64,000 bases of DNA, from contig PNKZ01000002.1 in the NCBI GenBank assembly GCA_013822735.1, positions 682,001-746,000 of the forward strand. Direction: 5' to 3'. This DNA is from Pirellula sp. Its GTDB lineage: Bacteria > Planctomycetota > Planctomycetia > Pirellulales > PNKZ01. Positions 40,973-55,318 of this stretch are shown in pieces (positions within the stretch are counted from its first letter, which is position 1; each line of letters starts with the position of its first letter). Below the pieces are notes generated by a model. It was given only the letters and a program-made list of their open reading frames with translations, was not told where the DNA came from and did no database searches. Position numbers and translations under genes: made by a program.

Positions 40973-43900
40973 TTACGGCGTCGGCGAGATACCGATCGCT
41001 TCTTCTTCTTCCGACTGGATGATGATACGCGGCGTCACCATCATCATCAGGCTTTCCGACGATTTGCCGATCGCCACGTTTTCAAACAGACGGTTGACGT
41101 ACGGCAACTTGCTGAGCAGCGGCACGCCGTTTTCCCGGCGAACTTCGGTCATACGCTTGATGCCGCCCAAAAGCACGGTGCCGCCGTCGGGTACGCTGAC
41201 CGTCGTCGTTACCGTTTGGAAGGCGAACGTCGGCAGCTGCACCGTGGTGCCGCTCCGTGTGACTTGCTGCTCCGTGTCGTCCGACGTTTGGCCGGGGCCG
41301 GTCACGGTGCTGCTGGAGTTGTTGGTCGTGCTCTCCGAACCTTCGAAGGTGAACGTGTTCACTTCGCCGATCTGGCTGAAGAACGGTACCAGCGTCAGTC
41401 GCACGAAGCGACGATCGTTTGATACGACGGCTTGCACGCTGAGCGAGGTGCCTTCATTGAGCACCACGATCACCGGCTGTTGGGCCGCTGCGAAATCGCC
41501 GACGACGGGGATCACGCTGATGACGAACGGACGTTGTTCCGTATCGGATACGAACGCCTGTTGGCCGTTGAACATCGTAACCTTCGGAGCTTGCAACACG
41601 TTGCTGCGGTTGTCGTCTTGCACGGCCGTGATGAAGAAGTAGGCTTCCAAGTCGCTGAGGATCGCGAAGCCGACGTTCGCACCGCCGGGAGAAGTGGCGG
41701 AGAACGACGGGATCGCCGACAACGCACCGGCGGCCACGGCATAACTGTCTTGAGTGAAGGGAATATCCAGATCGGAACTGAAGACGCCCGGTGCGCTCAT
41801 ACCGACGGTCAACGAATCGCCGGACTTGAGGTTGCGATCTTGATAATCGCGGCCCGGGTTTATTTGCGTGCCGGTGGTCGAGTAGGTCGGCGTGAACGCC
41901 GGGTCCGGCTGACCGAAGATCTGGAACGGCTGATCGGCGTTGCTGTTGATGTCCATGTCGAAGTCGACGCCGATTCGTTCGTAGAAGTTGTCGCTCAAGC
42001 GAATGAAGCGCACTTCGATCGTCACTTGCAAGTCTTGCAGCTGACGGAGCTGGTTGAGCAGATCTTCGATCTGTTCGTGCACGGCTTGCGTTTGCGTGAT
42101 GACGAGCGAGAGGGTCGAGCGGTGCGATTTTACTTCGCCTTGCGTACCGCCGGCTTCACGCCAGGTTTCCGGTTCGATGGTGCTGGTCATCAGTTCGATG
42201 AGGCTGTCGAAGTCGGGCTGGACGCCGCCTCCCATGCCGCCGCCGGGACCGAACGGAATGCTTTGTTGCTGCCCGCTCGCCGGCGGACCGCCGCCGCCCG
42301 AGGCAAACGGCACCATTTGGCCGAGGACCGAAGGATCGGTGCTGGCATTGGTGTTCTGAGCGATGACGGAAATCGGCGAGTGCGAGGCCAAGGTGGCGCC
42401 GCCGTACGATAGGCTTGCTTGTGCATCGGCCAAAGCTCCGGCCAAGCCCATGCGGCCGGTCGGCACGAAGTTCGGAATCGGGATGATCAAGTCGCCGACC
42501 TGGTACGTTACCGGGTACACCTCTTCCGACCGCATCCGGTCGCTGGTGATCTTGAGCACTTCGTTCTTGATGACGTAGGTCAGGTGGTGTTCGGCCAAGA
42601 TGAGATTGAGCGCACTACGGAGAGAGATCTCCGTGGAGACGTCGATCGAGACGGGGGTACTGCTATCGATTCCTTCGGCCGCGAGGCCGCGATTGTCGAC
42701 GTAGATCGGCACGCCGGTCATGGCGGAGAGCTTTTCGAACACTTGCGAGATCGGTGCGTTGGCGAACTTCAGCGAAACGGGAGTCTTCAGCCGTTGTTCG
42801 ATTTCGAGTTCCTTCGGTGATCGGCGACGGGAGTCTCCGTTCACGGGACCTCGGCGTCCGCGGAGGTCGGCCCAGTTGTTCGGGAACGTGATTGATTCGT
42901 CCGTCGTGGTCGACGACTTGTTGATCGCTTGATCCATGCGGACGAACGCATCTTCCCTACCGCTCGCAATGTCCGCGGCGTTGTACATGCGGCGGAGGGC
43001 CTTGCTCTGCACGGCGAGTTGGGCCGTAATCGCTTCGTTCGGAGCGATGTCCTGGGCCCGCTTGGCGAGCACTTCGGCTTCCGCGAAGCGTTGTTGGTCG
43101 ATCAACGTGTTGTACTCTTCGACCAGTTGAGCCAGCTTATCTTGACCGTCGAGCTTGGCGGCCTGTTCGCGATCGAGCGTGGCCTGCACTTCCTTATTGC
43201 GTTGCGAGAGTTCGATCTTCGGGCGATTCACATCGACGAACTGTTGGAGTTCGCCGAGGTCGCGATCGAGCCGACGGAGCATGAGTTCCTTGGTGCCGGC
43301 GTCGAGCGACGACTTCTCGACTACGACGCGGGCTTGTTGCAGCACGGCCTGGGCCTGCGCCGGATCGTTTTCTCGGATTTGCCGCGACTGTTGTTCGAGC
43401 CGTGCGACTTCGGACGAAACTTGGCGAGCTTGCAGCGCTTGGGCTTGGGCCGCTTCGTCGAGCAGGCCGCCGTCGGCGCGGCCGGGAGCGATCGGTTCGC
43501 CGGTGCCGACGAGCGACAAGCGATCTTGTAGACGTTGTTGGGCGACAGGGTCCAGTTCGCTGATTCGCGCTTGGGCCTGGCGGAAGAAGTTTTGGGCCGC
43601 GTTCATATCGCGACGACGCAAGGCGGCTTCCCCGGCATCGAGCGCCTTAAGGGCGTCTCCTTCCGGTGCTCCGATCGGGAGCGCGGCCGGAGCGCCGTTG
43701 GACGGGGCCACGGTCGGCACGTTCTGCGCGGCGACCGTCATGTTGCGCGTGGCGTCTTGCGCCGGATCGTACACGGCCTGCGAAGCAGGGAAGGAGGAAC
43801 CGGCAACCGGAGCTTGAGCCGCGGCAGGCATCACGCCGCCGCGACGTTGCGACTTCTCAATTTCCATCAGCACCAACCAGGCACGATCGTCTTGCGGGCC

Positions 43901-44614
43901 GAATTCCTTGTCGGGAACGCCCATGGCATCGGCTTGACGAGCCAGGGCGTCGGCGCGAGCGACGTCGCCGGCGGCCAGTGCGGCGCGGGCTTGGCGCACG
44001 AACTCCAGCGTTTGTTGCTTGCGGGCCGGATCGTTGTTGGCGACGGCGGGACCGGCCGGCAATGCGGCAGGTTCGGTACCGATGAGCCGCACGTCCGACG
44101 GAGCCGTCGAGGGCAGCGGAATGATGGTCGGCGTGGCGGCCGAAGGCGGGAACGCGTTGAAGTTGGGAGCGGCGTTGGTAGGAGCGGCCGCGGCCGGAGC
44201 CGCGTTCGCCGGCATGGCGCCCTGGGCGGGTGCCGTGGCGGCGGCCAACGTCGTCGGCGTACGGCCGGCGAACGGATCGGTCGACGCAGGCTTGCCGCCG
44301 CGCGCCTCGCGAGCCTTCTCCAGATCGCGACGAGCCTTCTTCGGCGTGTCGCCGGTGTGGAAGAGCCCGTAAGCGACGTTCAATCCTTCGGCCCGACCGA
44401 TGAGCGAATCGGCGGTTTCGAGATTGCCTTCGTTCATGGATTGCCGGGCACGGCCGAGCAAGTCGTCGACCTGCTTGCGAGCCGCGTCGGTTTCGACCTG
44501 ACCCAGCATCGCCGGCAGCGCTGCATAGGCATACGAGTCGAGTGCTCCGGCGACGGCGGGCGCCGACGGCAAGAACAGAGTAAGTGCGAAGGCGGCGAGG
44601 ATATAACGCGACAT
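40973..44614 (-). CDS. Secretin (PilQ/GspD-like) with long repeat-containing N-terminus
   Basis: 1213 residues from ATG at 44614; signal peptide to about 22. The N-terminal 600 residues hold helical TPR-like units (about 45-100, 195-255 and 330-375: ARQSMNEGNLETADSLI, ARAALAAGDVARADALA, GEAALRRRDMNAAQNFF) separated by Ala/Pro-rich linkers. Near 605-690 is an STN/N0-type domain (LKFANAPISQVFEKLSAMTGVPIYVD). The secretin core lies about 880-1200: VTIEVRFIRLSDNF, DDNRSNVLQAPKVTMFNGQ, VPDGGTVLLGGIKR, LLSKLPYVNRLF. It would form the outer-membrane channel of a type IV pilus or type II-like system. It has its own candidate promoter and terminator. Most PilQ/GspD proteins are 600-750 residues. Confidence 0.9.
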   Translation of the reverse strand: MSRYILAAFALTLFLPSAPAVAGALDSYAYAALPAMLGQVETDAARKQVDDLLGRARQSMNEGNLETADSLIGRAEGLNVAYGLFHTGDTPKKARRDLEKAREARGGKPASTDPFAGRTPTTLAAATAPAQGAMPANAAPAAAAPTNAAPNFNAFPPSAATPTIIPLPSTAPSDVRLIGTEPAALPAGPAVANNDPARKQQTLEFVRQARAALAAGDVARADALARQADAMGVPDKEFGPQDDRAWLVLMEIEKSQRRGGVMPAAAQAPVAGSSFPASQAVYDPAQDATRNMTVAAQNVPTVAPSNGAPAALPIGAPEGDALKALDAGEAALRRRDMNAAQNFFRQAQARISELDPVAQQRLQDRLSLVGTGEPIAPGRADGGLLDEAAQAQALQARQVSSEVARLEQQSRQIRENDPAQAQAVLQQARVVVEKSSLDAGTKELMLRRLDRDLGELQQFVDVNRPKIELSQRNKEVQATLDREQAAKLDGQDKLAQLVEEYNTLIDQQRFAEAEVLAKRAQDIAPNEAITAQLAVQSKALRRMYNAADIASGREDAFVRMDQAINKSSTTTDESITFPNNWADLRGRRGPVNGDSRRRSPKELEIEQRLKTPVSLKFANAPISQVFEKLSAMTGVPIYVDNRGLAAEGIDSSTPVSIDVSTEISLRSALNLILAEHHLTYVIKNEVLKITSDRMRSEEVYPVTYQVGDLIIPIPNFVPTGRMGLAGALADAQASLSYGGATLASHSPISVIAQNTNASTDPSVLGQMVPFASGGGGPPASGQQQSIPFGPGGGMGGGVQPDFDSLIELMTSTIEPETWREAGGTQGEVKSHRSTLSLVITQTQAVHEQIEDLLNQLRQLQDLQVTIEVRFIRLSDNFYERIGVDFDMDINSNADQPFQIFGQPDPAFTPTYSTTGTQINPGRDYQDRNLKSGDSLTVGMSAPGVFSSDLDIPFTQDSYAVAAGALSAIPSFSATSPGGANVGFAILSDLEAYFFITAVQDDNRSNVLQAPKVTMFNGQQAFVSDTEQRPFVISVIPVVGDFAAAQQPVIVVLNEGTSLSVQAVVSNDRRFVRLTLVPFFSQIGEVNTFTFEGSESTTNNSSSTVTGPGQTSDDTEQQVTRSGTTVQLPTFAFQTVTTTVSVPDGGTVLLGGIKRMTEVRRENGVPLLSKLPYVNRLFENVAIGKSSESLMMMVTPRIIIQSEEEEAIGISPTP

Positions 44615-44815
44615 CGTAGTCACGATCTCCCAATTAAGATACGAAACGGAACCGCGGCATCCTTGCCGCGCGATGATTCGGAGCAAACTGTCGGAAGCGA
44701 TGCCCTAACGATCGCGTACTCGGCGAGCGTCGGCATTGCCGGCGCGAGCCAGGGACGTGAGGGAAGGAGCGGAGGAAGTGCGTTGAGATGTGCTGCGGAC
44801 TGAAGTGAGGCGGGT

Positions 44816-44952: not shown

Positions 44953-46665
44953 TTAGTTCAGGCGCAGCGTACGACGCGTTCCTTCGCCCGAATCCGGTGT
45001 TGCCGGAGTACCCGCTGCGGGAGCGCCTGGATTTCCACCGGCGTCTTTCGCGCCGACGACTTGTTTCATCTCCTCGCGCAGCGGCCAATCACCGAGCTGC
45101 GTTTGGATGAAAAGCTCGCCGCGCGGCGTACGAACCAAAATTTCCGACGGACGATTCACCGTGCGTGCTTCGAGCGCCGAACCGGGGCCTTTCAAGCGCG
45201 CGTCGGTGCGTTCCCACGAAAAGTCGGCAAGCAGGACGTTTGTCTTCAGCGCGGTGTCCGTGGTCGTCGAGCCTTTGGCGCCCGGGATCATGTGCGCCAC
45301 CGTGGCCGTCGGCTCGTTCAACATGGCGCCTCGCAACTTGTTCTTAAATTCGTAGTAGACGTCCGCGGCCAGCCGGGGCGTCCACTGCTTTACGCCGAAC
45401 GTGGTTTCGGGTTCTTGATCGCCGCCGACCGACTTTCCTTCGCCCGCGAAGTAGCTCTCGAGCACCGGTACGCCGGTCGGATCCGACGGCTTGCTCCATT
45501 CGGTCTCGCGCGTCTCGCCTTGTGCAAGCTCCGGCGTTTCCAAGTGCGATTGGTCGAGCTTGTAGTTGGGATTCGCGATAATGAGCTTCACGCGATAGCG
45601 ATAGAATTTCGTCGGCTCGACGTTGAAGTCGAGGAAGCGGAACAATAGGTATTTCGGCTTTGTGACGACGGCTTCGGGCTTCGCGCCCTGCTGAGGGGCC
45701 GCGGCCGGAGCCGGTTCCGGAGTCGGTGCCGGGTCAAACGGACTGCCGGGGTTGACCGGCGCTGCAACCGGCGGGCCCAAGGCGACCGGAGGAGGTGCCG
45801 CGGCGCCCGCAGCCGCAGCAGGTGCGGCCGCTGCGGCGGGGATTTCCGGCAGGTGCGTGCACCAGTCGCCGTAGTCGCCGTTCGACAGCGGCGGCAGCGG
45901 CTGCGTGAGCGGCGGGAAACTGCAATACGCGCGGTCCGCGTATTCACGGCCTACGCCGGCCCACTTCTTGAGCTCGTCCGCGACATATACCTTCAGGTCC
46001 AAATCGGGAACGTTCTTCCAATCCACCGGCACGTCGGGGTTGGCGTTTACCACCTCCGCGCGTTGGATCTGGTAGAGGGTGTATCTCGGCACGGCGTTGG
46101 TGCGTGAATCGAGCGCGTTGGCAAATGCCTTGGCGTATTCCGCTTCTTGCGCTTCAAACGGCACCAGTCCGGTGACGGTCAGCCACTCCTCGCCTCCGGG
46201 GCGTCGTTGCACGTTGCCGCCCCCCGCGGCCGCGGCTCCGGCGACGGAATAGTCGATGGCGCCGTAATGGAATACGGCGCGCAATTCCGTGAGCTCGAAA
46301 TATTTCGGCTCCGTGCGCCGTTGTTTGGTGTCGAAGAGCGGGACGTTCCATTCCATGCCGCCGTAAGCCGAGGGATTCACCGGCTGGAGCAGCAAATTCT
46401 TGATTTTAACGAGGAGGCTTTCGCCGCTCGGAGGTTGAATGCCTTGCGAAGCCAGGTTGAGTCGCGAATCGGCCTGCTCGAAGACGGCCGCCGCGGCGCC
46501 GACTTCCTTCTTCAGGTCGTCGGGCGTCTTATCGTATTTCGCCACGCCGAACGCGCTGTAGACAAGCAAACCCGTCAGCACGACGGCAAAAAAGAGCCCG
46601 ACGTATTCTCCACGCTGTATGAAGAATTGCTTCATCTGCGCCGAATCGAATTTCTTGCCTGCCAT
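44953..46665 (-). CDS. Single-span membrane protein of the pil-like cluster (PilO/PilP position)
   Basis: 570 residues; ATG at 46665 with GAGGAG nine bases upstream. A short cytosolic N-terminus precedes one membrane helix (about 20-43, YVGLFFAVVLTGLLVYSAFGV); the remainder is periplasmic. It has mixed alpha/beta segments (AVFHYGAIDYSV, FRFLDFNVEPTKFYRYRVKL), an Ala/Pro-rich linker near 270-320, and a Gly/Pro-rich end. No named domain is recognised. From its place between a PilO-like membrane protein and the secretin, it is likely an inner-membrane-to-secretin connector comparable to PilP. Terminator directly downstream. Confidence 0.7.
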   Translation of the reverse strand: MAGKKFDSAQMKQFFIQRGEYVGLFFAVVLTGLLVYSAFGVAKYDKTPDDLKKEVGAAAAVFEQADSRLNLASQGIQPPSGESLLVKIKNLLLQPVNPSAYGGMEWNVPLFDTKQRRTEPKYFELTELRAVFHYGAIDYSVAGAAAAGGGNVQRRPGGEEWLTVTGLVPFEAQEAEYAKAFANALDSRTNAVPRYTLYQIQRAEVVNANPDVPVDWKNVPDLDLKVYVADELKKWAGVGREYADRAYCSFPPLTQPLPPLSNGDYGDWCTHLPEIPAAAAAPAAAAGAAAPPPVALGPPVAAPVNPGSPFDPAPTPEPAPAAAPQQGAKPEAVVTKPKYLLFRFLDFNVEPTKFYRYRVKLIIANPNYKLDQSHLETPELAQGETRETEWSKPSDPTGVPVLESYFAGEGKSVGGDQEPETTFGVKQWTPRLAADVYYEFKNKLRGAMLNEPTATVAHMIPGAKGSTTTDTALKTNVLLADFSWERTDARLKGPGSALEARTVNRPSEILVRTPRGELFIQTQLGDWPLREEMKQVVGAKDAGGNPGAPAAGTPATPDSGEGTRRTLRLN

Positions 46666-46780: not shown

Positions 46781-48256
46781 TCACTGCCCGGCGGTCGGCG
46801 AACCCGCGCCTCGTTTCGGCACGCCGAAGTCACGCTCGCCGGGGTTCGGATCGGCTCCGCGCCCCAGCTTGCGTTTCGCGGCGGCTTCGACGGTTTCTTC
46901 CGAATTCATCTTCGGGTCGCTCTTGGTATAGATGAATACGATTCCGCGTAGCGTCACCGTGGCGTCGTGCGGCGATTGCTCGACCTTGTCCACTTGCGCC
47001 GCAGCGTCTTCCGCGTTGACGCGACGGATCTGATCGACTTCCTTGAGCGATATACGCACTTGTCGCATTTCGATCGGAATCGGCGCATTGGCACATTGCG
47101 CAATGAGCACCGGCACCAAACGTTGGTCCATCAATACCGTGAGCTGCACGAACATCTGACGGAATTCCGTGTACGGCGGATTCGAAGGATCGGTCACCGG
47201 CGTGTTCCGGCCGTCAACGTAGCGATCGGTGAGCAGCCGCGTATCTTCCGCCGGCGTTCCTTCCGTTCCGGCGTTGAACACCGCTCCCGAGTCACTGCCG
47301 CCGGTGGTCCCCGCATCGGCGGCTCCTTGAATCGACACGTTCCCCGCATCCGCGACGGCGGCGGCCATCGCGTATTGTGCGAGATCGCAGTAGTCGATCC
47401 GCTTGATCGGCACGTTTGCCTGATCGACCGGCGCCGGGCCGGGCGTTTTGCCCTCCATCACTTCCAGCCAAGAACCGATCGGCTTTTCATTGATCTTGCT
47501 GATGACGCCGAACAGCGAACGAAACGTCCAAATGTCTTCGTACGTCACCGCAATTCGATCGAGAGTCGGAGCCGTTCGCGTATCGTAGCGCTGCATCAGC
47601 GCCGTCGGATCGTAAGGCGCTCGCCACACGACGATGCCGTCGGCTGCGGCCGCGCCGCCGGGTGCGGCCGCGACGCCGGCGACCGGTTTGCCGAACGCGT
47701 TTTGCCCGCGGGGGCGGCGAATGTTCAGCGGTTCGAAGAGCTTTTCGAAATCCTCTTCCAGCACTTGGTTGTTGTGATACGTCTGGATGGCGCCGGTAAT
47801 GTTCGACTGCAGATTCTTGCTGGCGTCGATCATCGCCTTGCGATCGTCGGGCTCCATCAAAACGAAGTCGCGGAAGATTTCCACCTTGGGGTTAACCGTG
47901 AAAATGCCGGTCTGACGGTTGTATAACTCTTCCCAGGCCTTGATCACTTCGTCGGTGAGGGCGCGGCGCACGACATCGACTTTGCCTGCGTAGCGCGCGT
48001 TCGGAGGGGAATTCGGACCTGCCATGCCGCGCAGACGTTTCGCCATGGTGAAGGCGTTCTCCGCCGTCTTCTGGTCCTTGGCATAAGCGACGTCCAACGC
48101 GCCGGTGCCCATGTACCAAACCACCGCAGCAACGATGATCACGAGGACGGCCAGAATCCAAAAGTGATTCTTGGCAAGCTTCTCCATGCCCGGACTCTTC
48201 TTCTTCGGCGGCTTCGGGGCATCCGGCTTTTCGGCGGCGGCAGGTTTATCGGCCAT
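46781..48256 (-). CDS. Single-span membrane protein of the pil-like cluster (PilO position)
   Basis: 491 residues. A Lys/Pro/Ala-rich cytosolic N-terminus (about 1-28) is followed by one membrane helix (about 32-52, FWILAVLVIIVAAVVWYMG) and a helical segment, the layout of PilN/PilO alignment-complex proteins. The periplasmic part is long; near 300-400 it has an alpha/beta region (TEFRQMFVQLTVLMDQRLVPVLIAQCANAPIPIEMRQVRI) that resembles the ferredoxin-like fold of PilO-type domains by layout only. It lies 74 bp after the PilM-PilN fusion gene and 115 bp before the next membrane protein gene. Confidence 0.7.
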   Translation of the reverse strand: MADKPAAAEKPDAPKPPKKKSPGMEKLAKNHFWILAVLVIIVAAVVWYMGTGALDVAYAKDQKTAENAFTMAKRLRGMAGPNSPPNARYAGKVDVVRRALTDEVIKAWEELYNRQTGIFTVNPKVEIFRDFVLMEPDDRKAMIDASKNLQSNITGAIQTYHNNQVLEEDFEKLFEPLNIRRPRGQNAFGKPVAGVAAAPGGAAAADGIVVWRAPYDPTALMQRYDTRTAPTLDRIAVTYEDIWTFRSLFGVISKINEKPIGSWLEVMEGKTPGPAPVDQANVPIKRIDYCDLAQYAMAAAVADAGNVSIQGAADAGTTGGSDSGAVFNAGTEGTPAEDTRLLTDRYVDGRNTPVTDPSNPPYTEFRQMFVQLTVLMDQRLVPVLIAQCANAPIPIEMRQVRISLKEVDQIRRVNAEDAAAQVDKVEQSPHDATVTLRGIVFIYTKSDPKMNSEETVEAAAKRKLGRGADPNPGERDFGVPKRGAGSPTAGQ

Positions 48257-48330: not shown

Positions 48331-50496
48331 CTAGTTGCCGTTGGCCGGGGCCGCGTTGCCGCCGGCAAGAGCTTTGCGCTTAATCGGCGGGATTTCTTGC
48401 CAGCAGAACTGCACGACCACGTCATATCGCGGCACGGTAATCTTTCGCGGCTCGCCCGCGTTGGCCGGGTCGTCGACGTCGACTTGATTGTTCCACAAGA
48501 TTTCCCCTTGTCCGATCAGCACCGGATATCGAATGCCCAGCTTGCGCACCGGCAGCTTCGATGGGAGCGTTTTCGCAAGTTCCGGCGGTGTGGTCGGTCG
48601 GTCGACCTCGTCTTGCAGCAATTTCACGAGGAACTCGCGCCGCAGATAGTTCAACCCTTGATACTTTTCCAAATCATCCGCGTTTTCACGGTGGTTGAAG
48701 AAGTGGTGCGCCTTAAGTTCGAAAACCCAGCCCGGCCCCTTCGGCCCGTCGTCGCCGGCGGCCGGCGGAGCCGGTTCGGCGGTAGGATCAAAATTCGGGT
48801 CCGCGGCCGGATCAACGGCAGGCGCGGCGGCGATATCGCGCACGTGAGCCGGCTTCAACTCGTCGGGAATTCCGCGCACGCCTTCTTCATAACGCGCCTT
48901 CACCCCCGCGTACCACACGGCGAGATCGTCGACTCGTTTGCAATCGAACTCCGTGATCTTCAAATCCGGACGAAGCGTCATGAGCATTTCTTGCGGTCGC
49001 GGCTCGGCCGGCGGATGCTTGGCGTCAAATGTTTTGAGAAATGCCGTCGGCACTTCGCGCGGCAAGCAGGCATTGATCGAACGCAATACTTCCAACCACA
49101 GAATGCGCCCTTCCACGTTCTGCTCAAACGTCTCACCGATTTGGCGCGTTTTCGTAAACTGCGCCTTGGCGTCTTCGAAATCCTTCGCCCAGATCGTGGC
49201 GTTCGAATTGAGCCCGTTGACGCTCGTCACCGCCGGCTTGAAATAGTCCTCCGTTTGGCGGGTCGAATACGTCGCTTCGTAGTGGCGGTAGAAGTTTACG
49301 GCAAACCCGATCAACAGCAGCGCGGCCGCCATGATCGCCCACGGCTTCTTGGCGCGGATCAGCCGATATTGCGTGATCTCTTGCGGCAGCAGGTTCGTCG
49401 ACACCTTGGCTTGCTTCAAGCCTTGTAGCGCCAGGCCGTAGCAGACGCCGTAGCTCAGCATATTCTCTTTGAACGCCGGCGCATCCACGATGCCCGGGCC
49501 CGCGAGTCCGCGATACGAGTCGGGCTTCGTAACTTCGAAGCCGAGGTTCTGCGTGAGAAACTTTTGCAGGCCCGGCAGCTTGACGGCGTTCCCGAGCGCG
49601 ATCACTTTGCCGATCTTGGCGGAGCGATCCATATTCGAGAAGAACTTCATCGATCGCTCGACTTCGGAGAGCAAGTCGCTGAAGACCGGTCGCATCGCTT
49701 GGAAGAGCGCCTTCGGGTCCTCGGCTTTCGAAGCGTTGCGCTTCAAATGCTCCGCCGTGGCATAGTTCATCTTCATGTCCTTCACCAAAGCCTTGGTGAA
49801 GTGATTGCCGCCGACCGGCAAACTACGCTGCCACATCTTGAAGCCGTTCGTCACGACGAAATCGGTCGTTTCCGTACCGATCGACAACACGACGGTCGAT
49901 TCCGGCGGATTTTCCGGATCGTATTGTTCCGGCGGCGGCAGATCGCGAATCTGATCGAACACGACCCAGTTGAAAAGCGCCAACGGCGTCAATTGCACGA
50001 CGTCGACTTCCACCTTGGCTTCGTTAAACGGCTTCAGCGCGCGTTCTACCTGATCGCGCTTCATCGCGAAGATGCCGACTTCGCAGTCGAGCGCGAACCC
50101 TTCCTCAATCGCGCCGGCCCCCATCTGCTGGTAGTCCCAAACGACTTCATCCAATGGAAACGGAATCTGTTGCTTCGCTTCGTAGCGCACGATGTCGGGA
50201 ATCTTCTTCGACTCGACCGGCGGCAACTTGATGAAGCGCGCGAGCCCGTCTTTGCCGGGCACGGAAATGACGACCTTGTCTCCCTTCACGCGATTGCGCG
50301 TAAGAAACAATTTCAGCGCATCGGCGATGAGCGCCGCGGGATCCGCGTCGGGCGAACTGAGCGGCTTGGGATATTCGACGAAGTCGAACACTTCGGCGAT
50401 GATCCGCTGCGTCCCGTCGTCCGACTCGCGGCAACGCAGCGCCTTCAGCGCGTACTGACCAATATCGATTCCCCAGGCGGCGACCTTTTTGGCCAT
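48331..50496 (-). CDS. PilM-PilN fusion protein
   Basis: 721 residues from ATG at 50496, with GGGAG upstream (ATG 50526 is less likely). Residues about 1-355 are PilM, an actin-like ATPase fold: WGIDIGQYALKALRC, VVISVPGKDGLARFIKLPP, YEAKQQIPFPLDEVVWDY, VVLSIGTETTDFVVTNG, VIALGNAVKLPGLQKFL. Residues about 370-405 read STNLLPQEI then a membrane helix (PWAIMAAALLLIGFAVNFY): in PilM/PilN systems PilN starts with such an NLLP motif, bound by PilM. The periplasmic remainder is PilN-like at first and then unique. It would be the cytosolic-to-periplasmic base of the secretin complex. First gene of the cluster, behind a strong promoter. Confidence 0.88.
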   Translation of the reverse strand: MAKKVAAWGIDIGQYALKALRCRESDDGTQRIIAEVFDFVEYPKPLSSPDADPAALIADALKLFLTRNRVKGDKVVISVPGKDGLARFIKLPPVESKKIPDIVRYEAKQQIPFPLDEVVWDYQQMGAGAIEEGFALDCEVGIFAMKRDQVERALKPFNEAKVEVDVVQLTPLALFNWVVFDQIRDLPPPEQYDPENPPESTVVLSIGTETTDFVVTNGFKMWQRSLPVGGNHFTKALVKDMKMNYATAEHLKRNASKAEDPKALFQAMRPVFSDLLSEVERSMKFFSNMDRSAKIGKVIALGNAVKLPGLQKFLTQNLGFEVTKPDSYRGLAGPGIVDAPAFKENMLSYGVCYGLALQGLKQAKVSTNLLPQEITQYRLIRAKKPWAIMAAALLLIGFAVNFYRHYEATYSTRQTEDYFKPAVTSVNGLNSNATIWAKDFEDAKAQFTKTRQIGETFEQNVEGRILWLEVLRSINACLPREVPTAFLKTFDAKHPPAEPRPQEMLMTLRPDLKITEFDCKRVDDLAVWYAGVKARYEEGVRGIPDELKPAHVRDIAAAPAVDPAADPNFDPTAEPAPPAAGDDGPKGPGWVFELKAHHFFNHRENADDLEKYQGLNYLRREFLVKLLQDEVDRPTTPPELAKTLPSKLPVRKLGIRYPVLIGQGEILWNNQVDVDDPANAGEPRKITVPRYDVVVQFCWQEIPPIKRKALAGGNAAPANGN

Positions 50497-50789: not shown

Positions 50790-51074
50790 ACAAAAAGGGC
50801 CGTTTCATGCGCTTTCGGCGAACGTCGATGACGGTTTCAATCACCGCGCCGGGCGGCCGATTCCGGCGCCTAAAGTGGATTCGCTGAACGTCGCCATGAG
50901 CATCCGTTTCATCGAAGCGTGTCGATCCCGCGCGGCCGCGCTACCTCGACGCCTTCGCGCGGCCCGACTAATCTAGCAACTCCGCAAAAAACATCGTCTT
51001 CCGCGCCCGCCCCCTCGCCCGGCGGTTCGCCAGGTTGGCTCCGCACTTTTCGCCCCTATTTGCCCGCTGCCGCC

Positions 51075-53942
51075 ATGGTCATTGAGGAACTCGTCGTCCT
51101 GCTTCCGTGCCACAGCCTGGAAGACTTTCCAGTCCACCACGAAGGGGAGGAGGCCGAAGGTCTGTTGGCCGCTTGGTCGGGCCTTTGGCATCCCGCACTA
51201 ATCGCCGCCTGCGACAATATTCCGCTCTGGTTTCGCGCCGATGCGCCGCCGGAAAACCCGCGGCCGCGGATTATCGTCATTCCCCAAGTGAGCGACACGC
51301 TGCTGCTTCCCGGTTGGCCGACACGAGCGAAATCGGAGGGGGCGAAGCTCATTCGCAAGACGGCAAAACGGACCGACGTCGTCGCCGCTTGCCTTGCCGT
51401 GCTCGATAAGCCGTCGACGGTGCCGGACCACATCGTGGCGGATTTCTACGCCCTGGGAACCGGCTATTTGTTGGTCGAGTTGCTCACGCGGCAAATGCGA
51501 TACATGAGCAACCTCGACGAAGTGCGTTTTCAGAACGAAGCCCGCGAAGCGGCCCGAGCTGCGGTCGAAAATCGAATCGACGAAGCGCAGCAGCACCTGA
51601 AGAACGCATTCGAAACGCTTTATGAAGCCCGCGAACGTTTTTATCCGGTCGACAACTATTTGATCGATCTCACCCTCACCGCCGACACGACGCTCGGTCC
51701 GGCCTTGCGCCAGGAACTTTCCGGCGACGTCCCCCTGAACGTGCTGATCTCCGGCGCTTTGGTCGATCGCCTCGCGGAGCGCGAACCGGAATCCCTGGCG
51801 GCCCTGCGCCATGCGATTGATCGGCGTATCGCGTGCGTCGTCGGCGGCGAGTACGACGAACGAGAAACTCCCCTGTTACCGATCGAGACGATTCTCGACG
51901 AGTTTCGCCGCGGGCGAGCGGCGTACCAGCGACACCTCGACCTCGCACCCAAGGTTTACGGCCGGCGCAAGCAAGGGCTCTCGCCGCTGGTGCCGCAAAT
52001 CGTGGCCCGTAGCGGCTTCGAAGGGGCCCTTTCGTTTACGCTCGACGACGGCGTCTTCCCGACGCCCGACCAATGCAAGACTCGCTGGGAAGGCTTTAGC
52101 AACGACGCGATCGACGCGCTCGGTCGCACGCCGCTCGATGCGGCCCAAGCGGAAAGCTTCCTCGACCTGCCGCGCAAAGTGGGCGACGCGATGGACCGCG
52201 ACTACGTCGCGACGACGGTGTTCGCGCATTGGCCCGGTGCGACGAGCGACTACTACGACGACCTCCGCCGTATGGCGACCTACGTCCCGTTGCTTGGCAA
52301 GTTCGTCACGCTGACCGACTACTTCGATCACACGGAACGCCCCGGACAGATCTCGAAATTCACCGCCGATCGCTATCGCACGACCTTTTTGCGTCAGGCT
52401 GTGGTGCGCAACACGCAGAACCCCGTAACTTGGGCCGCAGACGCGCTCCATCGTCGCCTGCAGGTTGCAACGGCTGCGACGCTCCAAACGATGGCGGAAG
52501 CCGTCACATTGCGCCAGGAAACGGAATCGGCGGCGTCGCTGATGGCGGAAGTCGATCAATCGACGGGAGCTACTCTCGATATCGAAGCGGCGAAGTTGCT
52601 CGATCAACGCGTGGCGACGGCCGTGACTAATGCGGCTTCGTCCGCGGCGTCGGCCGTTTGTGGTCGGGCGACAAACGAAGCCGCCGAAAGTCTGCTACTG
52701 CTCAATTCGCAACTTGGATCCCGTCGCGAGCTTGTCGACGTCTCGTCGCTCGCGCGCCTGCCCGAAGTCGGCGGCCCAGTCGCCGCCGTGCAAGAATCCG
52801 GTTCGCAAAAGTTCGCCGTCGTCGATGTGCCCAGCATGGGCTTTGCTTGGCTCGCGGCAGGGCCGACCGTCGACACGCCTCCTCCCAGAAAATCGAGCGG
52901 ACTCTTCGGATTGCGCAAGGGTCCGAAGCCGCTTGTGGAAGCGAACATTCTCCGCAATGAGCTCGTCGAGGTGCATCTCAGCGAGTTGACCGGCGGCATT
53001 AAAGGTCTGTTTGTCACGGGCCGACGTGAGAAGCGCGTCTCGCAGCAGTTGGCCTTCCGATTGCCGCAGCCCCGTCCGAGGCCGGGCGACCCGTGGCGCG
53101 ATCCCGACCTCGAACCGATCTACTCGACCATGGTTTGCGAACGTTGGGAGCCGACCATCGTCGGTCCGACCGTCGGCGAACTGACGTCGTACGGAAAGCT
53201 CGTGGATGCCGAAGGGAAGCGACTTGCCGGCTTCACGCAACGCTTGCAGATCGCGCAAGGTTCGCCGCTCGTCACGCTGGAGATTGATCTCGATATCGAA
53301 GAGCAACCGCGCGCCGAAGCTTGGGGCTCGTACTACGCCGCGCGTTTCGCTTGGGGCGATCCGACGACGGAACTCAGCCGCGGCGTGTTCGGCATGCAGC
53401 AGCCGACAAGCACAAAACGCCCGGAATCGCCGCATTTTATTGAGTTGAAGACGGAAACGACGAGTACGCTCCTGCTCCCGGACGGTCTGCCGCATCACTT
53501 GCTCACGGGCGAGCGGATGCTGGATACGTTGCTCATCGGCAAAGGCGAGACGCGTCGCAAATTTCGCTTCGGAATCATCGTCGAGTCGGCTCATCCCGCG
53601 GCGGACGCTCAAGCGTTCATGTCGCCGCTTGTGCCCGTATTAGGCGCTCCACGACCCGCCTCCGGCGCGACCGGCTGGCTCTTCTTCGTCGACGCCAAGA
53701 ATTTCCAAGCGACTCATTGGGAAAGCATCGTCGAAGCCGACAAGGTGGTCGGCTTCCGCGTGAGGCTGTTGGAAACGGAGGGGCTTTCCGGCCAAGTCGA
53801 GCTACGCACGATCCGCGCGGTGCGCGAAGCCAAGGTCGTCAATCTGTGCGGCGAGACGCTCCTCACGCTCGCGCCGACGTCGACCGGCATTCCGATCGAC
53901 GTCGGGCCTTACGAATGGCTCGAGCTCGAAGCCCGGTACTAG
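51075..53942 (+). CDS. GH38/GH57-like fold protein, probably inactive
   Basis: 955 residues from ATG at 51075 (MVIEELVVLLPCHSLEDFP); the GTG at 50919 is an alternative. The N-terminal 500 residues follow the course of GH38/GH57-type alpha-mannosidases: LLPCHSLEDF where the first metal-site His-x-Asp is expected, IACVVGGEYDERETPLLPIETILDEFRRGRAAYQRHL, then QIVARSGFEGALSFTLDDG. The usual nucleophile segment (WLPDxFG-like) is replaced by KVYGRRKQGLS, without an Asp. No signal peptide. The C-terminal half is beta-rich, as in the mannosidase C-terminus. Divergent from the pil-like cluster. Function unknown. Confidence 0.65.
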   Translation: MVIEELVVLLPCHSLEDFPVHHEGEEAEGLLAAWSGLWHPALIAACDNIPLWFRADAPPENPRPRIIVIPQVSDTLLLPGWPTRAKSEGAKLIRKTAKRTDVVAACLAVLDKPSTVPDHIVADFYALGTGYLLVELLTRQMRYMSNLDEVRFQNEAREAARAAVENRIDEAQQHLKNAFETLYEARERFYPVDNYLIDLTLTADTTLGPALRQELSGDVPLNVLISGALVDRLAEREPESLAALRHAIDRRIACVVGGEYDERETPLLPIETILDEFRRGRAAYQRHLDLAPKVYGRRKQGLSPLVPQIVARSGFEGALSFTLDDGVFPTPDQCKTRWEGFSNDAIDALGRTPLDAAQAESFLDLPRKVGDAMDRDYVATTVFAHWPGATSDYYDDLRRMATYVPLLGKFVTLTDYFDHTERPGQISKFTADRYRTTFLRQAVVRNTQNPVTWAADALHRRLQVATAATLQTMAEAVTLRQETESAASLMAEVDQSTGATLDIEAAKLLDQRVATAVTNAASSAASAVCGRATNEAAESLLLLNSQLGSRRELVDVSSLARLPEVGGPVAAVQESGSQKFAVVDVPSMGFAWLAAGPTVDTPPPRKSSGLFGLRKGPKPLVEANILRNELVEVHLSELTGGIKGLFVTGRREKRVSQQLAFRLPQPRPRPGDPWRDPDLEPIYSTMVCERWEPTIVGPTVGELTSYGKLVDAEGKRLAGFTQRLQIAQGSPLVTLEIDLDIEEQPRAEAWGSYYAARFAWGDPTTELSRGVFGMQQPTSTKRPESPHFIELKTETTSTLLLPDGLPHHLLTGERMLDTLLIGKGETRRKFRFGIIVESAHPAADAQAFMSPLVPVLGAPRPASGATGWLFFVDAKNFQATHWESIVEADKVVGFRVRLLETEGLSGQVELRTIRAVREAKVVNLCGETLLTLAPTSTGIPIDVGPYEWLELEARY

Positions 53943-54003: not shown

Positions 54004-55194
54004 CTACTTCCAACGAATCCGCGCGGCAATCACGTTGTTGTGCGCGTCTTCGACGCGCTCGTTGTTCGGCATTTCCGCAGCTACGACCCAAGTCTCCTTC
54101 GGTCCCGCGGGAATCACGTCGAAGTTGCCGATGTCGGCATTGTTGTGTGGCATAAGTACCTGCTCCGTTTTTCGGAGCACGCAGAGTCGATCGGTGTCGA
54201 CTTCCGCAATGAAAAGCGGCGCGCGATGGCGGAAGATGTGATCGTTGTTTGCCCCGCGACGCGTGTAAATGAGATATAGCTTGTCGCCATGCGTGGCCCA
54301 ATGTTGTTGCGTGTTGTAGCTGCCGAGCACGCTGCCGTCGTCGTATTTCCATTCCGTCGGCGGCGTATAGTCGTTGCCCTGGGGATCGGCATTCGTCGAG
54401 ACGAACGCCGTGTCGTCGGCGCGCATTGTGAGGAACAATTTGCCTTGGTGCAAAATGAGCGACGGCTCGTACAGCCCGCGATTGAGCGGCCGCGAAAGTT
54501 CGGTGCCGTGTTCGACGTAGCTCAGCGTCGTGCCGTCGAAGCGACAGCGGGCGACTATCGTCGTGTAACAACGCTTCTTCGGATCTTTGCAGTAGCGAAT
54601 CGGCAGCAAGACTTCACCGTTCGGCAGATCCACGCGATCGTTGCAGCCCGCGTTCGGTTGTAGAACGGCTTTTCCTTCGTGATCGCTCTTCGGCAACTCG
54701 ACGATCTTCATCGGCGACCAAGCGTCGGCTTTCGGGTCGTAGACGGCGTAAGAGACCTCTTCGGCGCCGCGATCCTCTTTCGTTCCGTCGCGAAAGGTGA
54801 AAGTCTTGCCCGTGCCGAGCACCAGTCCGGTCTTCGCGTGATAGCGTGGGCAGAGATCGCCGATGGCCCGTTCGTCCGGAGAGTCGTTGGAGATTTTGCC
54901 GCGACGAAGCGGTTCGATGAGCTTCGGCTTGGACCACGACATGCCAGCGTCGTCGCTCGTAACTTGAAACACATCGTGGTAGCCGTGACTGCCGGCCCGT
55001 TCGATCTCTTGCGCCGTGATCAGAATCTTGCCGTCGGCGAGCATCGTGCCGCGAGCTTGTGAGAACCAATACTTGGCCGGGCCGGGAAAGAGCGTGACCT
55101 GTTCGATCGTGTAGGCCGGCTCTTCTGCGCCGGCGATGAGACTTGCGGACGTTGCGGCAATGGCCATAACGAAAACGAGGCAAGCCGAACGCAT
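54004..55194 (-). CDS. Secreted sialidase-fold (BNR-like) protein
   Basis: 396 residues from ATG at 55194; signal peptide MRSACLVFVMAIAATSASLIAGAEEP. Repeats of the six-bladed sialidase type: FQVTSDDAGMSWSKPKLI (an Asp box, S-x-D-x-G-x-x-W), SYAVYDPKADAWSPMKIV, and late YEPSLILHQGKLFLTMRADD. Arg residues suited to the sialidase Arg triad are present in several loops, but I cannot confirm the catalytic set. An exported exo-glycosidase or a glycan-binding propeller is likely. Convergent with the GH-like gene. Confidence 0.8.
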   Translation of the reverse strand: MRSACLVFVMAIAATSASLIAGAEEPAYTIEQVTLFPGPAKYWFSQARGTMLADGKILITAQEIERAGSHGYHDVFQVTSDDAGMSWSKPKLIEPLRRGKISNDSPDERAIGDLCPRYHAKTGLVLGTGKTFTFRDGTKEDRGAEEVSYAVYDPKADAWSPMKIVELPKSDHEGKAVLQPNAGCNDRVDLPNGEVLLPIRYCKDPKKRCYTTIVARCRFDGTTLSYVEHGTELSRPLNRGLYEPSLILHQGKLFLTMRADDTAFVSTNADPQGNDYTPPTEWKYDDGSVLGSYNTQQHWATHGDKLYLIYTRRGANNDHIFRHRAPLFIAEVDTDRLCVLRKTEQVLMPHNNADIGNFDVIPAGPKETWVVAAEMPNNERVEDAHNNVIAARIRWK

Positions 55195-55318
55195 GGCGGG
55201 AATCTCGCGAGGAAGCAAACCAAGGGAAGGACGCTCATGGTAACAAACTCACGGGCCGCTCCAAGGATTTGATTTTTGCACCTTCATGACGTCGTGGAAA
55301 TTCGGCATACTTGCAGGC

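Follow-up and report, generated by a model that had tools for sequence, protein, structure and literature searches.

In a 64,000-nucleotide stretch of a contig from a Pirellula sp. (hereafter the window), a gene on the minus strand raises the question of whether PilM and PilN can be permanently joined in one chain, and of which envelope machine such a chain would form a part. The original prediction proposed a single frame of 721 amino acid residues with a complete PilM domain, the NLLP motif and a membrane helix, uninterrupted over the junction and not two adjacent genes. The Pfam, NCBIfam and AlphaFold results agree with the proposed frame, whose strand had not been stated, and the same uninterrupted architecture is present in homologues throughout the class and the phylum. 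The gene, of 721 codons before its stop, occupies 48331-50496 with its ATG at 50496 and its stop codon at 48331-48333, and the longest open reading frame opens at a TTG 10 codons upstream of the ATG.

The N-terminal part of the protein is an actin-like PilM domain (residues 1-360, 49417-50496, minus strand). PilM_2 (PF11104) matched residues 9-358 (E 3e-34; 118.8 bits, cut-off 27), and the NCBIfam pilM model (TIGR01175) was passed with 142.6 bits against a cut-off of 133, with the matches spanning residues 6-359. An AlphaFold2 model made with 56 homologues (pLDDT 87.3, pTM 0.59) shows PilM and, after it, the strap, the membrane helix and the coiled coil. Its actin-like domain reaches residue 360; then come a short strap, a helix at 372-415, a long helix at 420-477 and an alpha/beta part at 484-699. 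The model resembles Thermus PilM (2ych; Z 33.9, 2.8 A over 331 residues), which has the actin-like PilM fold, and the other top matches among solved structures were Myxococcus PilM (3jc8) and a chimera of Pseudomonas aeruginosa PilM and PilN residues 1-12 (5eou; Z 33.1). The matches listed in this fold search with the full model cover the PilM domain only. On the minus strand, the membrane helix (about residues 385-405) corresponds to 49282-49344, the predicted periplasmic coiled-coil helix to 49066-49239, and the predicted periplasmic alpha/beta domain, which is interrupted by a Pro/Ala linker, disordered in the model, at about residues 545-588, to 48400-49047.

The junction carries the hallmark of the PilN N-terminus, that is, an [I/V]NLLP-type motif and one membrane helix: residues 366-373 read STNLLPQE, after which come RAKKPW and a hydrophobic helix, with the hydropathy peaking at residue 385. 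The NLLP strap itself (residues 368-371, 49384-49395, minus strand) is conserved and is the equivalent of the PilM-binding peptide at the PilN N-terminus. In the comparison with PilM-PilN peptide complexes that the original prediction had proposed, this segment aligned with the PilN part of 5eou both by sequence and by structure. The structural alignment covers model residues 5-372 with the NLLP included, while peptide-free P. aeruginosa PilM structures stop at 360-361, and the profile alignment paired the NLLP with that of PilN in the chimera. Both alignments agree with a strap that would lie in the groove of a PilM domain, either its own or that of a neighbouring subunit.

Downstream of the fused gene, and on the same strand, are genes for a bitopic protein of 491 residues (46781-48256), a third bitopic protein of 570 residues (44953-46665) and a secretin (40973-44686; PF00263, E 7e-24), whose longest open reading frame has 1237 residues from a TTG, with the true start uncertain. 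The secretin open reading frame has an N-terminal extension of about 630 residues, rich in Ala and Gln, ahead of the recognised secretin domains. Homologues of the 491-residue protein, the 570-residue protein and the secretin were found in 59, 47 and 16, respectively, of 79 related contigs, where they keep this sequence of genes on one strand; the counts are limited by the contig ends. The 491-residue protein had no match among PDB sequences and was resolved only through its predicted fold, which matched Amuc_1100 (6lad/6laf/6kny) with a Foldseek probability of about 1.0 and Z of 8.9-8.3, values near 8 being modest. The first ten Foldseek rows were all Amuc_1100 entries, followed by GspL periplasmic domains (PulL and XcpY; Z 5.8) and then PilO, and the Amuc_1100 family matched 6 of 33 homologues of the protein. 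The order of the genes is also in keeping with this, and we regard the protein as Amuc_1100-like and of the PilO/GspM type. The 570-residue protein, which has the position of Amuc_1099 by synteny and for which a PilP/GspC-like role may be suggested, was not matched by anything in Pfam, in NCBIfam or among PDB sequences. The secretin is matched by the models of the Amuc_1098 family, GspD and PilQ, with GspD marginally above PilQ. No ATPase or pilin was recognised beside the operon. Nearby, a protein of 1007 residues (50919-53942, plus strand) is divergent from the operon and had no Pfam match at E 0.1, and a protein of 404 residues (54004-55218, minus strand) has a weak BNR-repeat (sialidase-like) match below the cut-off.

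The same genome also has unfused PilM (352 residues), PilN (258 residues, beginning MKPIDFLP) and PilO (182 residues) at another locus (G000:C8), whose vicinity also has a secretin and prepilins, together with an ATPase of the GspE type and a GspF-like protein. The original prediction held that a conserved separate pilN in close relatives would speak against the fusion. Such a gene is indeed present, even in the genome itself, but it belongs to another system with a PilM of another clade, and therefore the fusion stands and the separate pilN was rejected as an argument against it. The unfused PilM scores 114 bits with the pilM model and 58 with the Amuc_1101 model, while the fused protein shows the reverse (143 and 207), and the same contrast was seen in eight further planctomycete proteins, four of them fused and four unfused. 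A further locus (G000:C2:11-23 kb, L140) encodes three PilB/PilT-type ATPases in the order PilB-PilT-PilB, a PilC-like protein and then four prepilin-like genes, with PilMNO and secretin absent in the stretch read; it is a candidate for the motor of the fused operon. In the whole genome, the secretin domain was matched eight times and the T2SSE ATPase fourteen times, suggesting that several filament or secretion systems probably coexist.

A survey of planctomycete genomes, as the original prediction had proposed, found the fusion throughout the class and the phylum. Of the 198 genomes searched in the class, 192 have a relative, and all frames among the matches listed are long. When 294 genomes of the phylum were searched with the Amuc_1101 profile, 293 gave a match, and most of the best-scoring frames had 530-900 residues; since the profile also matches unfused PilMs more weakly, at most 293 genomes can be counted for the fusion. 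A PilM_2 search gave two main size classes (about 340-460 and 600-850 residues), often within one genome, and a search of plasmids gave distant PilMs only. The junction pattern [NSD]L[LVIM]P was found at the same place in 108 of 109 sequences, some of which possibly come from the same genome via two collections, and the remaining one reads NSLVPRE. A tree built from PilM domains placed the 18 fused rows, without exception, in one clade (support 100/99) that needs a single change, the rows of L002, Thermus and Pseudomonas being long branches. The fusion is old, conserved across Planctomycetota and, in the sampled tree, of single origin. That an artefact of assembly or frame had fused two neighbouring genes is an explanation with practically no remaining probability: nothing was found in its favour, and two adjacent genes joined through a frameshift were ruled out by the recurrence of the same single open frame in many independent genomes, which makes the architecture more than chance. 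Two other genomes have PilM-like proteins of about 560-570 residues (L152, 805-2511, and L166, 817-2496, both minus strand), in which the C-terminal part has several predicted membrane helices and no PilN-like strap was seen. These are a second, different PilM fusion in Planctomycetota, and an ordinary-sized PilM is located about 3 kb away in both genomes.

How much of the C-terminal half is PilN is a separate matter. In an hhalign comparison, the profile of the C-terminal half (34 homologues) matched that of 23 separate planctomycete PilNs with 94.6% probability (E 6.7e-8) in an alignment of 120 columns starting at PilN residue 2, against 1.2% for a neighbouring bitopic protein used as the control. 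When the profile was trimmed, the strap and membrane helix gave 94.2%, while the periplasmic part was not significant (4.4%, P 0.009), indicating that the PilN signal is carried by the strap and the membrane helix and that the periplasmic assignment comes from the predicted element order only (alpha-beta-alpha-beta-alpha-beta-beta). The region from the strap through the membrane helix matches separate PilNs of the same phylum, and the alpha/beta order predicted for the periplasmic domain would make it a putative counterpart of the ferredoxin-like domain of PilN. The PilN family PF05137 had no match in the fused protein, the C-terminal half of the 34 homologues or the genome, a result that counts for little since the family model is insensitive here (the genome's own separate PilN scores 18.7 against a cut-off of 22.8). 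The C-terminal half might instead be an unrelated periplasmic domain that had borrowed a PilN-like strap and membrane helix, as the periplasmic-only comparison and the lack of a convincing Pfam match among the 34 homologues would allow. However, helices and strands succeed one another as in the GspL/PilO-like domain of the neighbouring protein, and the PilN alignment extends beyond the membrane helix, through a conserved R-x-LW helix. We consider such borrowing improbable.

The fused gene encodes, in one chain, an ATPase-fold PilM domain and, resembling PilN, a strap with NLLP, a membrane helix and a coiled coil. In its operon, which is conserved, the genes for the Amuc_1100-like protein, the third bitopic protein and the secretin come after it. 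Most likely, the product is the subunit that forms the platform from cytoplasm to periplasm in a PVC-type type IV filament machine, of the kind encoded by Akkermansia Amuc_1098-1101. This reading draws on the PilM and secretin families, the preference for Amuc_1101, the structure matches, the PilN profile comparison, the Amuc_1100-like neighbour, the operon order, the fused clade and its distribution, and the candidate motor locus. Alternatively, the protein could be a GspL orthologue and the operon the inner-membrane and secretin part of a type II secretion system rather than of a pilus. GspL has the same architecture (PMC10191384, PMC6325625), its cytoplasmic domain is among the structure matches of the fused model, the model of the 491-residue neighbour also matches the periplasmic domains of PulL and XcpY, and the secretin has its slightly higher score with GspD; a weak T2SSL match (E 3.6e-5) that does not reach the cut-off was also seen in a single, distant homologue with the fusion. 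On the other hand, T2SSL (PF05134) had no match in the fused protein or anywhere in the genome, the protein has a PilM domain of full length that scores above the cut-off of the pilM model, while the entire chain of Escherichia coli GspL has only 387 residues, and the best-fitting family model and the best matches of the neighbour are Amuc_1101 and Amuc_1100, respectively. A type II secretion platform is accordingly the less favoured reading, unlikely but with a real share of the probability.

As the platform subunit of a filament machine, the fused protein would have its NLLP strap seated in the PilM groove, just as PilN is in the PilM:PilN crystals, which would fix PilM and PilN at 1:1. The periplasmic domain may pair with the Amuc_1100-like protein, the third bitopic protein may connect to the secretin, and the motor ATPases and prepilins would be supplied by another locus, possibly the candidate described above. 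With about even chances, Planctomycetota and Verrucomicrobiota have in common a filament machine that spans the envelope, was inherited from an ancestor and is separate from both T4aP and T2SS. It would consist of fused PilMN, an Amuc_1100-like PilO, the third bitopic protein and the secretin, and its PilM would never be released from the tether to PilN. If so, Amuc_1100, known for its host effects, would be a PilO-type inner-membrane part of that machine. The present results tie a planctomycete locus of which little has been described to the Akkermansia Amuc_1098-1101 cluster, which has been studied intensively, and suggest roles for fused PilMN as the platform and for Amuc_1100 as a PilO-type protein. 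Genomes in which tethered and untethered PilM-PilN pairs occur side by side also form a large natural collection, one that could help to show if the release of PilM from PilN matters for filament assembly.

The interpretation in the original prediction is for the most part right: profile comparison, structure prediction and phylum-wide conservation support the fusion and the idea of a built-in PilM-PilN link, but the principle is not new. We found no description of a PilM-PilN fusion in planctomycetes in the open-access literature; what is added here is how widely the fusion occurs in Planctomycetota, together with its connection to the Amuc_1098-1101 locus, the kind of architecture being known already. 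GspL of type II secretion is described as a natural fusion of PilM and PilN (PMC10191384, PMC6325625), and the planctomycete protein resembles GspL/EpsL/PulL in having an actin-like cytoplasmic domain, a membrane helix and a periplasmic domain, although its full-length PilM domain is recognised by the pilM model and T2SSL has no match, and GspL of E. coli K-12 has DMLHG instead of NLLP ahead of the membrane helix. PilM and PilN are also fused in one protein in the type IV pilus of Clostridioides difficile (PMC6916266), which, likened here by description, is a monoderm system without a secretin, unlike the planctomycete operon. The artificial P. aeruginosa chimera 5eou likewise has PilM and then the PilN peptide in one chain. 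By the match to its family profile, Akkermansia Amuc_1101 is a further case. This comparison was made through the profile NF045709 only, of which positions 52-462 (of 608) matched residues 55-479 of the fused protein, spanning the junction, with 206.5 bits, far below the equivalog cut-off of 650, which none of the 294 genomes of the phylum passed. The Akkermansia locus encodes a secretion channel protein (Amuc_1098), Amuc_1099, Amuc_1100, a PilM protein (Amuc_1101) and a pilin-like protein (Amuc_1102) (PMC5332112, PMC13174399). The planctomycete locus differs from it in the longer fused protein (721 residues), in that no Amuc_1102-like pilin was recognised beside it, and in that Akkermansia belongs to Verrucomicrobiota. 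As in the Amuc_1101 family, the PilM domain runs on across the junction and is followed by a long C-terminal region, and, as in the pilus-like Amuc_1098-1102 (MUL2) locus, an Amuc_1100-type gene comes next and the cluster includes a secretin.
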